Of a DNA stretch of 64,000 nt, positions 45,071 to 48,347 are shown one piece after another. A program made the translations under genes and the position numbers. The notes below the pieces were generated by a model, which was not told where the DNA came from, did no database searches, and saw only the letters and a program-made list of their open reading frames with translations. Each line of letters starts with the position of its first letter. Within the stretch, counting starts at the first letter, position 1. This DNA is from Phycisphaerales bacterium (GTDB lineage Bacteria > Planctomycetota > Phycisphaerae > Phycisphaerales > UBA1924), in NCBI GenBank assembly GCA_023382935.1, contig JAHDXL010000004.1:210122-274121 (forward strand), in the 5' to 3' direction.

Positions 45071-45340
45071 TCAGCGGGTCGGAAGATCGAGGTTCTCAAC
45101 CACTGAGAGGTGGTCCAGGTTGCACACCACCAGTTCGCCGTCGTCCTTGCGGAGTTCCACGCGGTCGAGCCACAGTTTCTTGTCCTGGCTGTGGGCGTAC
45201 CACGAACCGGTTTTCTGCTGTCCGACTCGGAGGACGACGCCCTCGACGGCGTGAACCAGCGCCCCGGTGCTGCGGGGAATCTGGCGAGTGACGCGAACGC
45301 GTTGACCGGGCCGAATGTCGAATGCCTGCTGAGCGTGCAT
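45071..45340 (-). CDS. Small conserved-type protein, function unknown
   Basis: An 89-residue soluble protein from ATG 45340. The sequence RPGQRVRVTRQIPRSTGALVHAVEGVVLRVGQQKTGSWYA reads as a small beta-barrel (SH3/KOW-like alternation of charged and hydrophobic residues), followed by KKLWLDRVELRKDDGELVVCNLDHLSVV. I recall similar short proteins in planctomycete genomes but no named family. It is tail to tail with the previous gene with no gap between the stop codons. A long frame upstream to 45889 lies over the structured RNA candidate and is not supported. Confidence 0.6.
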   Translation of the reverse strand: MHAQQAFDIRPGQRVRVTRQIPRSTGALVHAVEGVVLRVGQQKTGSWYAHSQDKKLWLDRVELRKDDGELVVCNLDHLSVVENLDLPTR

Positions 45341-45639
45341 GGGTGTGACTATATCCCTCCTTCTGATGGACACGCTGAGCCAAGCCTGGCCCCTCCTGGC
45401 CACCCGGGATGGGGCAGAACGAATCCACTCCCGGTCGGGGTACGAACAGTGTGGTTCGAGGCGAGATGAAAGCGCCAGGACAAGAGCCATCTTCTTCCGG
45501 AGACGAGACTTAGAGAAAATGCTCGAACCGCCTCGCATCACTCGCGTATGGACTTGGGCCTTGTGTGCCGCGGGCCGACCGAGACGGAGACGGAAGTCCC
45601 CGATCGAGGGTTCCCGGGCTGATCCGCCATGGGGTTGAT
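45341..45639. other. Intergenic region upstream of the structured RNA candidate
   Basis: No gene with recognisable features on either strand. It should hold the promoter of the small gene on the minus strand and of whatever is transcribed toward nhaA, but I find no box pair good enough to call. Confidence 0.4.
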
Positions 45640-45963
45640 TGAGGGTGTTCACCCGTCTGTGAGGAATCTGAAAGAGCGGGTGTTGGAGCCGGGCGCTGCC
45701 CGGACGCGCGTGCGGATGCGGAAGCGTCGTACGGGTGTTTCGCAGTGGTCGAGGCCGGGTGGGTAGGACCCGCAACCTCGCCGTTCCGTGAGCGTCGCCT
45801 GCGAAGGGGTGGGCGACGCTGTGTGGAGAGAGGGTTTCGCCCATTGGGCGACTGTGGGTCGCGGCGTTCCGTTTCCCCGCGACCCGCATTCAGACAGGCC
45901 TCCTTTCTTTCCCACGCTGAGCCGGGCGACGGAAGCCCATCCCCGTCGCCCGGCGAGTTTTTT
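45640..45963 (+). ncRNA. Candidate structured RNA or nhaA leader (riboswitch-like), ending in a terminator
   Basis: The region codes for no convincing protein but forms a series of hairpins: CCGGGC-GCT-GCCCGG (45689-45703), an interrupted stem GAGG...CCTC around GGGTGGGTAGGACCC (about 45751-45779), AGCGTCGCC/GGCGACGCT (about 45790-45820), CGCCC-ATT-GGGCG (about 45838-45850), GGGTCGCGG/CCGCGACCC (about 45856-45885), then a perfect terminator. It lies 93 bases before the nhaA start. It lacks RNase P, tmRNA and SRP signature bases. It could be a small RNA or a transcription-attenuating leader; nhaA-linked cation riboswitches (nhaA-I class) are known elsewhere, but I cannot confirm a match. Confidence 0.4.
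45921..45963 (+). terminator. Strong rho-independent terminator upstream of nhaA
   Basis: GCCGGGCGAC (45921-45930) pairs perfectly with GTCGCCCGGC (45945-45954), 14-base loop, then GAG and six T residues. Confidence 0.9.
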
Positions 45964-46055
45964 GTGCACACCAGTCCGCGGACTCCCATTTCGGACATTG
46001 GTTGCGGTATTGATTGAGTGGTCCCCATCCCACGGGGTGGCGACACTTGCCCGCC

Positions 46056-47435
46056 ATGGCCACACCCACCACGATTCCGTCGCCGGCAAAGGAAACCAAA
46101 CCCATCGCGGCCGAGCGCCTGTTAGCGCCGCTGGAGCGCTTCATGCGCTTCGAGGCGGCCGGGGGTATTTTGCTGATCGCCGTGTCGCTACTGGCGCTCT
46201 TGTGGGCCAACTCCGCATGGGCTGAAGAGTATGTGGCAATCTTCCAGACACGGAAGTTCACGATTGGATACGGCCAATGGGCGTTGTCCAAGCCCCTGAT
46301 CCTGTGGATCAACGACCTGCTGATGGCAGTGTTCTTCCTTCTGGTGGGGCTGGAGATCAAGCGCGAAATTGTGGTGGGGGAACTGAGCACGCCCAGGAAG
46401 GCGGCGCTGCCCCTGGCTGGGGCCCTGGGAGGCATGGTGCTTCCGGGGGTGATCTATGCCGCGATCAACTGGGGTCGCCCGACCATTGGCGGCTGGGGTG
46501 TCCCCATGGCCACGGACATCGCCTTTGCCTTGGGGATTCTCTCGCTGGTGGGCAGCCGAGTGCCCATGTCGTTGCGGGTGTTTCTGACGTCGCTGGCGAT
46601 CGCCGACGACCTGGGGGCTCTGATCATCATCGCGGTGTTCTACACCGAGCAGATCGGCCTGAACTATCTGGCACTGGCCGGCGCCGGGATCGCGGTGCTG
46701 GTGGTGCTAAACCTGCTCGGATTCCGGCGGCCGATCGGCTACATGTTGATCGGGCTGGTCGTCTGGTACTTCGTGCTCAAGAGCGGCGTGCACGCGACGA
46801 TCGCCGGCGTGCTGGTGGCACTGACCATTCCCACGCGCCGGCGCGTCAACCAACATCACTACGTCGATTTCGTGAAGCGCATGATCGGTAAGTTCGAGGA
46901 CAAGATCGATCGCACCGGGCCCGCCCACTCTTCCGGCGAACAGCAGACGCTCGTGCTCGCGATCGAGGGCGCCGGGCGCGCGGTGCAGTCGCCCCTGAGC
47001 AGCCTGGAGTTCAGGCTGATCCCGTGGGTGGCCTTTGCCATCATGCCGGTGTTCGCACTGGCCAACGCCGGCATTGCGTTGGGAAACGGGGAGGATGGAC
47101 AGGGCCTGCCGATGCCCGCATTGCTGGGGGTGGCACTGGGACTGATGATCGGCAAGCCCCTGGGCGTGTTCGGGTTTTCATGGCTGGCGGTCAAGTTGGG
47201 AATCGGTGAGACCATGCCTGGCGTGCAGTGGAGGCACATATTCGGGGCCTCGTGGCTGGCCGGGATCGGGTTCACCATGGCGCTCTTCATCGCCAACCTG
47301 GCGTTCAAGAACGACCCTGGCTCGCTGGACGCGGCCAAACTGGGCGTGCTCGGCGGGTCGATCGTCGCTGGCGCTGTGGGCCTGGGCGTGCTGATGATGT
47401 GCCCGAAGATCCAGCATGACCCCTACCACGGCTAG
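46056..47435 (+). CDS. nhaA: Na+/H+ antiporter NhaA
   Basis: Exchanges Na+ or Li+ for protons to control pH and salt. The 459-residue protein has about 12 hydrophobic segments and family motifs FEAAGGILLIAVSLLALLWANS, NDLLMAVFFLLVGLEIKREIVVGEL, VPMATDIAFALGILSLVG (Asp equivalent to E. coli 133) and LAIADDLGALIIIAVFY (the Asp pair equivalent to 163-164), which form the ion site. FANAGIAL-type FALANAGIAL follows. The middle loop (about 255-305) is longer than in E. coli and charged. pabC-like starts nine bases after. The upstream terminator may attenuate transcription. Confidence 0.97.
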   Translation: MATPTTIPSPAKETKPIAAERLLAPLERFMRFEAAGGILLIAVSLLALLWANSAWAEEYVAIFQTRKFTIGYGQWALSKPLILWINDLLMAVFFLLVGLEIKREIVVGELSTPRKAALPLAGALGGMVLPGVIYAAINWGRPTIGGWGVPMATDIAFALGILSLVGSRVPMSLRVFLTSLAIADDLGALIIIAVFYTEQIGLNYLALAGAGIAVLVVLNLLGFRRPIGYMLIGLVVWYFVLKSGVHATIAGVLVALTIPTRRRVNQHHYVDFVKRMIGKFEDKIDRTGPAHSSGEQQTLVLAIEGAGRAVQSPLSSLEFRLIPWVAFAIMPVFALANAGIALGNGEDGQGLPMPALLGVALGLMIGKPLGVFGFSWLAVKLGIGETMPGVQWRHIFGASWLAGIGFTMALFIANLAFKNDPGSLDAAKLGVLGGSIVAGAVGLGVLMMCPKIQHDPYHG

Positions 47436-47444
47436 AGTGCCGAC

Positions 47445-48347
47445 ATGCCCGAGCCTCTTGTCTTCGTTCAGGGCCGCATCGTCGGACGCACCGAAGCACT
47501 GGTGTCAGCCTTTGACGCGGGGCTGATCCACGGCGTCGGGCTGTTTGAGACCATGATCGCCCGGCGAACGAGCAGCGGCGTGCGCGTGTTCCGGCTTGAA
47601 GAGCACCTGGATCGGCTGGCCGCGTCAAGTGCAGAACTGGGGCTGAGTCACGACGTGCGGACCGGCCCGCTGGCCGACGCCGTGCGTCTGACGGCCGAGC
47701 GAAGCGGCTACGACTTGGCCCGCGTCCGCCTGACGCTGACGGGCGGCGACCTCAACCTGCTGGAAACCAGCGCGCGGTCCAACGTCACGCCGACCGTGAT
47801 CGTCTCCGTGCAGCCGGCCACCCAATACCCCGACGCGATGTTCGAGCGTGGCGTGATGGCCACACTGGGCGACGCACGGCTCAACCCGCTCGACCCGATG
47901 GCCGGGCACAAGACGCTGAACTACTGGGCGAGATTGCGCGAGTTGCAGAAGGCCGCCGGCAAGGGTGCTGGCGAATCCATCCTTCTGCAAGTCACCAACC
48001 ACGTCGCAGGCGGATGCGTGAGCAATCTCTTCGCAGTGCGCAACGGGTCGCTGCATACGCCGATCGCGCATGGAGAGGAAGAGCGCGGCGGAATGCCCAG
48101 CCCGGTGCTGCCGGGCATCACGCGGGCGGCCATCATCGAGATCGCGCAGCGCCAAGGCATCGGCACCATGAAGCGCATGCTGACCATCGACGACGTGCTC
48201 GACGCCGACGAATTGTTTCTGACTAACTCGAGCTGGGGTGTGCTGCCGGTGGTGCGGGTGGAGGCCGAGGAAATCGGGGATGGAACGCCGGGCGAAATGA
48301 CGCGGGAACTGCGGATATCGCTGGAAGAAGCGACGAAGAGGCCCTGA
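47445..48347 (+). CDS. Class IV aminotransferase / aminodeoxychorismate lyase-like protein
   Basis: PLP enzyme of the IlvE/PabC/D-amino-acid transaminase fold, 300 residues. FDAGLIHGVGLFETM near residue 23 matches the G...GD/GVFET start of the family, RLEEHLDRL the conserved Arg-x-x-x-H-L, and GHKTLNYWARL near 152 contains the PLP Lys. ESILLQ-x-x-NHVAGGCVSNLFAV takes the place of D...LL....V.E.S.SNLF, with Gly-Gly where Glu normally binds the PLP ring nitrogen region, an unusual point. LPGITRAAIIEIA follows as PG..R. Substrate could be aminodeoxychorismate or amino acids; I leave the gene name open. Confidence 0.85.
   Translation: MPEPLVFVQGRIVGRTEALVSAFDAGLIHGVGLFETMIARRTSSGVRVFRLEEHLDRLAASSAELGLSHDVRTGPLADAVRLTAERSGYDLARVRLTLTGGDLNLLETSARSNVTPTVIVSVQPATQYPDAMFERGVMATLGDARLNPLDPMAGHKTLNYWARLRELQKAAGKGAGESILLQVTNHVAGGCVSNLFAVRNGSLHTPIAHGEEERGGMPSPVLPGITRAAIIEIAQRQGIGTMKRMLTIDDVLDADELFLTNSSWGVLPVVRVEAEEIGDGTPGEMTRELRISLEEATKRP

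Follow-up and report, generated by a model that had tools for sequence, protein, structure and literature searches.

A candidate stand-alone structured RNA upstream of nhaA in Phycisphaerales and its predicted pairing with a second RNA

The DNA analyzed here (the window) is a stretch of 64,000 nucleotides from the genome of a Phycisphaerales bacterium (3.7 Mb, 35 contigs). Within the window, a GC-rich stretch lies between a probable gene on the minus strand (45071-45340) and nhaA, which begins at 46056. We refer to the RNA predicted before nhaA as X and to its predicted partner RNA as Y; genomes are labeled G (G000 is the genome of the window), genera g, and loci L. The features, in window coordinates, are as follows.

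45525..45549, plus strand: promoter-like box, GAACC-N14-GCGTAT; a looser pattern is present at 24 of 28 X copies
45557..45965, plus strand: RNA X, presumed full transcript, based on folds and homologues, with the start taken from the promoter-like box
45754..45767, plus strand: G-rich site GCCGGGTGGGTAGG, complement of RNA Y; the same in the window copy and the 4 nearest homologues (alignment A3)
45792-45800 with 45811-45819, plus strand: hairpin A, loop GCGAAGGGGT; strongest covariation, with 5 of 9 pairs changed on both sides in 4 sequences
45825..45833, plus strand: conserved purine box GGAGAGAGG (alignment A3); a GGGGAGAGA box in g59 copies
45837..45851, plus strand: small hairpin B (TCGCCC/GGGCGA); 1 of 6 pairs changed on both sides
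45854..45887, plus strand: hairpin C (GTGGGTCGCGG/CCGCGACCCGC); 10 of 11 pairs never vary
45899..45915, plus strand: conserved pyrimidine stretch CCTCCTTTCTTTCCCAC (alignment A3), predicted to pair with the purine box
45921..45963, plus strand: intrinsic terminator made up of an 11-bp stem, a conserved loop containing GCCCATCC, and T6; identified from the sequence and as helix 5 of the covariation test
46056..47435, plus strand: nhaA, a neighbor outside the RNA, 93 nt downstream (Pfam PF06965, E 7.5e-145)
47445..48347, plus strand: class IV aminotransferase gene (Pfam PF01063, E 9.9e-43); a neighbor common to X loci in several genera outside g59

Because the promoter-like box is conserved, we place the start of X near 45557, and the box and the terminator together give an RNA of approximately 45557-45965. 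Judged from its sequence, X is most plausibly a separate gene for a structured, non-coding RNA of ~410 nt, with its own putative promoter and intrinsic terminator, and it is presumably transcribed as such. A preliminary description of this DNA had delimited a structured, non-coding feature at 45640-46055; the feature is real, but its 5′ end had been set too short.

The plus strand of 45640-45975 folds at −178.9 kcal/mol, compared with −151.8 ± 5.8 kcal/mol for 100 dinucleotide shuffles, none of which was as good (z −4.66). For the presumed full-length RNA (45559-45965), the fold reaches z −2.76, again with 0 of 100 shuffles as good, and the opposite strand of 45510-45970 reaches z −2.36. The terminator consists of a stem at 45921-45931/45944-45954, a 12-nt loop, GAG, and the T-run at 45958-45963, and it agrees with the strong terminator reported in the preliminary description, as does its distance of 93 bases from the nhaA ATG. 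A simple terminator scan did not list the X terminator because its loop (12) and the gap between stem and T-run (3) exceed the limits of the scan. The terminator loop GCCCATCC (45932-45943) could also pair with GGGTGGGT of the G-rich site (45757-45764) over 8 bp including wobble, which would mask the site in cis; a possible cis contact between GCCCAUCC of the terminator loop and GGGUGGGU was spotted by eye.

We searched 101 genomes at the DNA level and obtained matches in five: the genome of the window, two loci of the same genus (L003 and L004), one of another genus (L005), and L006. The match at L006 covers 38 nt within a ribosomal protein gene cluster (identified from translations) and was discarded as chance. 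In all three real homologues, the RNA precedes nhaA. The alignment of the window with these homologues (A3) contains near-identical blocks at GCCGGGTGGGTAGG, a GAAGGGG loop, GGAGAGAGGG, GTGGGTCGCGG..CCGCGACCCGCATT, TTTCTTCCCACGCCGAG (TTTCTTTCCCACGC in two sequences), and the terminator with its loop. The two sides of the hairpin at 45792-45819 change in step. Across the four sequences, pairing is retained in 95.9% of cells, and both partners differ in 8 of 37 pairs; none of 500 shuffles reached either value. Four of five covariation measures exceeded all shuffles, whereas the number of further pair types did not (12, compared with 12.8). The shuffles preserve column make-up and ignore relatedness, so the covariation is support and not proof. 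The structure described for this stretch is thus borne out both by its folding energy and by compensatory changes in three other genomes.

No reading frame is open across all five homologues compared, in keeping with the earlier statement that the stretch holds no believable protein. An ATG-initiated frame of 45 codons inside X (45629-45766) is interrupted by an in-frame stop in L003. In the window, L003, and L004, another frame runs open through the 3′ part, and in L005 this frame contains stops; the distance from the motif to the stem end is 201, 202, 214, 214, and 270 nt in the homologues, and because of these length differences the residues of that frame are shifted. We therefore rejected a coding region for want of a conserved frame.

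A covariance model (R1) built from the four sequences was used to search 163 family genomes under strict filters, with 13 candidates scored per genome. Matches occurred in 11 genomes, comprising the four model genomes, G142, four genomes of g59, and, weakly, two of g55; because of the four-sequence model, the filters, and the number of candidates, absences in this search are weak evidence. When R1 was applied to 25 aminotransferase loci, it returned one full-length match (L139) and weak pieces. Better copies of X in g55 were found by reading, located before the aminotransferase gene or, in G193, before nhaA. RNAalifold analysis of six g59 X copies gave 15 of 82 pairs with changes on both sides, a count made without a shuffle control. 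The two weak g55 matches, L020 and L022, mainly have the 3′ end in common with X. These loci (L020:1501-1739 and L022:1501-1721) appear to hold a separate candidate RNA with the 3′ end TTTTCCCACGCTGA and a terminator as in X, lacking the G-rich site.

We scanned the 420 nt upstream of each G-rich site, on the G-rich strand, for the pattern NAACC-N13..16-CGTA[TAC]; at Y sites, the promoter of Y itself would be on the opposite strand. Beyond the 24 X copies with the box, L017 has a weak form, and no box was seen at L019, at L071, or at L004, where the contig ends. Of the remaining sites scanned on the G-rich strand, L117 alone has a box. In G000, the strict pattern GAACC-N14..15-GCGTAT is found at a single position, that of X; G002 has three occurrences and G001, where X is truncated by the contig end, has none, compared with 2, 0, and 1 for the reversed control. 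Genome-wide, the strict pattern is not above chance, and because it does not exceed the reversed control in the genus, what gives the box weight is that it recurs so constantly at X. A similar box, GAACC-N15-GCGTAG (L008:1440-1465), lies upstream of the tmRNA gene in the same genome and was not seen at that spacing upstream of rnpB; boxes of the GAACC/GCGTA type may be promoters of certain stable RNA genes in the group. A pattern of GAAC-N16-CGTA resembles ECF promoters. We dropped an ECF-sigma reading of the X promoter because of the similar box at the tmRNA gene.

X was also compared with known RNAs. None of 4,227 Rfam families, which we take to include the nhaA-I, nhaA-II, and Na+ models, reached its gathering score in the window, and a search of 45300-46200 under permissive filters to E = 5 returned only two weak, chance-like matches (to lncRNA and snoRNA models). 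Five X homologue loci likewise had no Rfam match at gathering score. The tmRNA and RNase P RNA of this genome lie elsewhere (C4:454038 and C2:476798), and X was rejected as either one, as it matches neither RF00023 nor RF00010. 6S RNA has the shape of a single rod with a central bubble. X resembles it in being a stand-alone, stable structured RNA and differs in its predicted multi-hairpin fold and in lacking an Rfam match. The 6S model (RF00013) had no match in the genome, whereas 5 of 14 control genomes matched, four of them over the cut-off. One report describes no 6S RNA in Thermogutta and cites its absence in two other planctomycetes (PMC5673643).

The preliminary description had suggested a cation riboswitch, or an attenuating leader of nhaA. 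The Na+ riboswitch is reportedly the DUF1646 motif. The Li+ riboswitches correspond to the nhaA-I and nhaA-II motifs (PMC9646797). Like the Li+ and Na+ riboswitches, X is a structured RNA before nhaA, and it has a terminator; unlike them, X has no Rfam match, also stands before unrelated genes, and has a complement in trans. We rejected a cation riboswitch of the nhaA-I, nhaA-II, or Na+ type since no Rfam model matched, and the broader proposal of an nhaA attenuator is not supported, given that X also occurs without nhaA behind it and has its own box and terminator. The preliminary description's second guess, a stand-alone small RNA, gains support from the promoter-like box, the terminator, and the varied genes downstream.

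The genes around X were named by reading their translations; for nhaA, the aminotransferase gene, rnpA, mrpA, and clpB, one representative of each was checked against Pfam. X is followed by nhaA and then the aminotransferase gene in the window and in G193. G026 and G201 have the order clpB, another gene, X, nhaA, and aminotransferase gene; in G202, the order is clpB, X, another gene, nhaA, and aminotransferase gene; and in G019, two X copies precede an mrpA-type antiporter cluster and the aminotransferase gene. Either nhaA or mrpA is directly behind X in g1, G026, G201, G019, and G193, and the aminotransferase gene directly follows X in G142, G053, G188, G056, and G192. In at least nine g59 genomes, the gene after X is rnpA. 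Two g59 genomes that were examined further, G175 (where nhaA is read from the opposite frame) and G181, have nhaA on the other side of X, as does G172. Because an aminotransferase gene, rnpA, mrpA, or a convergent gene follows X elsewhere, X is not tied to nhaA.

These neighborhoods bear on the possibility that X is a cis-acting leader, starting near 45557 and ending in a conditional terminator at which an ion, a metabolite, or the pairing with Y would serve as the signal for read-through into nhaA, the aminotransferase gene, or rnpA. In many genomes, X lies on the same strand as the following gene and 17-93 nt before its start codon: the aminotransferase ATG is 17 nt past the T-run in G142 and ~22 nt past it in G053, and rnpA starts ~28-50 nt after X in G179, G175, and G173. 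Sodium/proton antiporters are also frequent neighbors, and two unrelated kinds (nhaA and mrpA) occupy corresponding places behind X. However, the genes downstream are functionally unrelated, no riboswitch in Rfam matched the window or the five homologue loci, and the distance to rnpA grows to ~100-300 nt in G060, G178, and G189. Two further arrangements argue against a leader, namely, the tandem X copies of G019 and, in G172, a convergent gene that lies ~45 nt past the X terminator and before rnpA. In the three genomes of g1, moreover, a further conserved stretch, TTTCGGAC..TTGCGG, lies between the terminator and nhaA and is possibly nhaA's own promoter. We consider a leader an unlikely general explanation of X; in some genomes, such as G142, with its aminotransferase start so close behind the T-run, a leader function is possible.

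The G-rich site of X led to a second RNA. Across the 163 family genomes, the 14-mer GCCGGGTGGGTAGG occurs at 66 places in 33 genomes, compared with 13 places for a reversed-pattern control, none of them in genomes of the genera with X or Y. With manual inspection, the 66 places divide into 27 in Y (one each in 27 genomes), 18 in X (17 genomes), and 21 others. Ten more X copies have a shortened match (three in g55 and seven in g59), for totals of 28 X copies in 27 genomes and Y in 27 genomes; 20 genomes have both RNAs, seven have X only (G174, G176, G179, G202, and the three of g55, by exact matches), and seven have Y only. In these counts, L071 was taken as X by motif and position, without a box, and Y was sought by an exact 14-mer, 12-mer, 10-mer (g55), and 20-mer. 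The 20-mer, which occurs in the Y copies and some X copies, retrieved 31 stretches from the genome collection, of which 28 are titled as planctomycetes, two as "bacterium," and one as Cyanobacteria. The contig with the Cyanobacteria title (L078) is probably contig C1 of G002, a relative, and its label looks wrong.

In the genome of the window, Y lies at approximately G000:C6:51003-51217 (L054:1404-1618), between genes read from translation as mqnA and acs. Its fold beats shuffles (z −4.29), and eight Y loci had no Rfam match at gathering score. RNAalifold analysis of five g59 sequences gave 10 of 55 pairs with changes on both sides, without a shuffle control. The final stretch of Y, ACCTACCCACCCGGCGTCGGGCTGC..GCCCGGCGTCG, which includes its terminator, is almost invariant in seven sequences from four genera. 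Within Y, the terminator-proximal site CCTACCCACCCGGC is a perfect complement of the X site, and in all 27 Y copies the C-rich strand stands directly before a terminator-like hairpin. In cis, GGGUAG is the predicted pairing partner of this strand; the resulting GGGUAG/CUACCC helix is without covariation support because its pairs never vary in alignment A6.

We measured the longest perfect X/Y complement in 17 of the 20 genomes with both RNAs (all but G180, G181, and G188). It spans 14-21 nt in all 17 and includes the core GGGTGGGTAGG, whereas shuffled Y gave averages of 8.0-9.1 nt (100 shuffles per genome) and reached 14 nt at least once in two of the 17 genomes (G019 and G178). The longest complement of X is 10 nt with tmRNA and 9 nt with rnpB. 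The complementary site is among the best conserved stretches in both RNAs. The predicted net energy of the X/Y interaction ranges from −2.4 to −20.8 kcal/mol, with an opening cost of 7-22 kcal/mol; with structure predicted at both sites, the net binding comes out weak in some cases. Presentation of the site in a hairpin loop beats shuffles at 0.05 in four of 28 X copies. A flanking position with possible trans covariation pairs in seven of 17 genomes (A-U in five and U-A in two), and trans covariation is undemonstrable at the core of the site because the core does not vary.

The remaining 21 places of the 14-mer include 18 in genera with X or Y, in about 12 orthology groups and compared with no control places there; the other three (G143, G011, and G030) belong to genera with neither X nor Y and may be chance. 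The 14-mer is found at about codon 8 of a subtilase gene (L072), at about codon 26 of a gene for a secreted-looking protein without a Pfam match in two species (L112 and L038), and 9 nt upstream of the start of a PilM-like gene (L120). It also follows stop codons at L105, L107, L109, and L043. The places at mRNA start regions look like Y targets, and the extra places as a whole would fit a Y regulon without proving one.

Some of these places point in a different direction, in which X is an independent structured RNA, the complementarity to Y is not used in trans, and the motif is a double-stranded DNA element or protein-binding element present at several loci. The C-rich strand of the 14-mer is on the nearest mRNA at L059 and at L115 and L117, and the 14-mer lies between convergent genes at L061, L062, L067, and L070. 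Moreover, X in all three g55 genomes retains the core GGGTGGGTAGG, and no Y was found in them. A search of g55 for a diverged Y (CTACCCACCC) returned 10 places; on visual inspection none had a Y-like terminator, and three were X sites read on the other strand. An element of this kind is nonetheless improbable: the C-rich strand stands before a terminator-like hairpin in every one of the 27 Y copies, the G-rich strand of the X copies is the strand read from the promoter-like box, and, for a protein site, 14-21 nt of perfect matching would be long. As for the caution in the preliminary description that the stretch might be no more than another mRNA's 3′ end, and for the related possibility of a bidirectional terminator whose structure arose by chance, the terminator does rank with the most conserved parts in the nearest genomes, but compensatory changes in hairpins outside it, the conserved promoter-like box at 45525-45549, and a probable upstream gene that points away (45071-45340, minus strand) leave this explanation with very little credibility.

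On balance, we consider it probable, if only just, that X is a separate RNA whose G-rich site pairs in trans with Y, with Y likely a C-rich sRNA and X its decoy or antagonist. The basis in silico is a conserved structure, no conserved coding, a promoter-like box with a terminator, and an exact, conserved complementarity; the pairing itself is predicted, and its occurrence in the cell, like the direction of control, is what these features suggest. In this mechanism, GCCGGGUGGGUAGG of X would base-pair in trans with the C-rich, terminator-adjacent site of Y. Y would be a C-rich sRNA pairing with G-rich sites in mRNAs, the complementary site presumably acting as its seed, and X would offer an identical site in a structured frame and so titrate Y, as RosA does with RoxS. 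Because the G-rich sequence is also present in some mRNAs (in the start region or the 5′ or 3′ UTR), Y is most likely the regulatory sRNA and X the decoy; the sequences would be equally compatible with the reverse roles, in which Y is an antagonist of X. X would have to displace the cis strand of Y, since the C-rich site is predicted to be paired with GGGUAG. The position of X at 17-50 nt before a start codon in some genomes, as in a leader, counts against the decoy model.

RosA of Bacillus subtilis is a sponge of RoxS and FsrA of ~225 nt with its own promoter and intrinsic terminator, the G-rich regions of which complement C-rich regions of partner sRNAs that also target mRNAs; both binding and titration were shown (PMC8216469). 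X is like RosA in standing alone, in having its own promoter-like box and terminator, and in offering a G-rich site to a predicted C-rich partner, a likeness drawn from these features. Complementarity to a partner sRNA, a defining trait of RosA-type RNAs, was present for X in all 17 genomes examined. RosA carries three G-rich regions, whereas X and Y have one uninterrupted match of 14-21 nt beside the terminator of Y; X is also longer than RosA, and its pairing, unlike that of RosA, is a prediction.

A more far-reaching proposal, which we regard as tentative and on present grounds rather doubtful, is that X and Y form the core of a Phycisphaerales-specific network with a 14-nt code, in which Y would be the hub sRNA and X copies (once in tandem) the decoys, with further sites in the start regions and UTRs of mRNAs, among them those of the subtilase and PilM-like genes. 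X might then act by strand displacement, possibly on the termination of Y as well as on its targets. Strand displacement is proposed because the Y site abuts the terminator stem, because the complement extends into this stem in some g59 and g18 genomes, and because a G-rich strand within Y is predicted to sequester the site in cis.

Neither X nor Y could be assigned to an Rfam family, and literature searches on planctomycete and Phycisphaerales RNAs, which were partly unspecific, gave no such RNA among the matches listed. We rate X as a structured regulatory RNA with a complementary partner, a known kind of RNA. The locus illustrates that a strongly folded stretch with a terminator before nhaA is not necessarily a riboswitch; it points to an interacting pair of regulatory RNAs in a little-studied bacterial group rather than to a cation riboswitch. 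Two structured RNAs without an Rfam match, linked by a conserved perfect complement, provide a testable entry to RNA regulation in Planctomycetota.

Two minor observations concern individual parts of X. Within the pyrimidine stretch, CCTCCTTTCTTTC (45899-45911) appears to resemble the 3′ end of 16S rRNA with the anti-Shine-Dalgarno sequence; it is retained with small changes in near homologues and was not seen at this position in the model-aligned g59 X copies. In G019, the mrpA-type antiporter cluster (L178:724-3897) takes the place of nhaA between X and the aminotransferase gene, and of its two tandem X-like genes (L064:1521 and L064:2051), the second is very short, with the site and a terminator-like hairpin within ~60 nt. 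The minimal unit may thus consist of the promoter box, a GTCCCC hairpin, the G-rich site, and the terminator.
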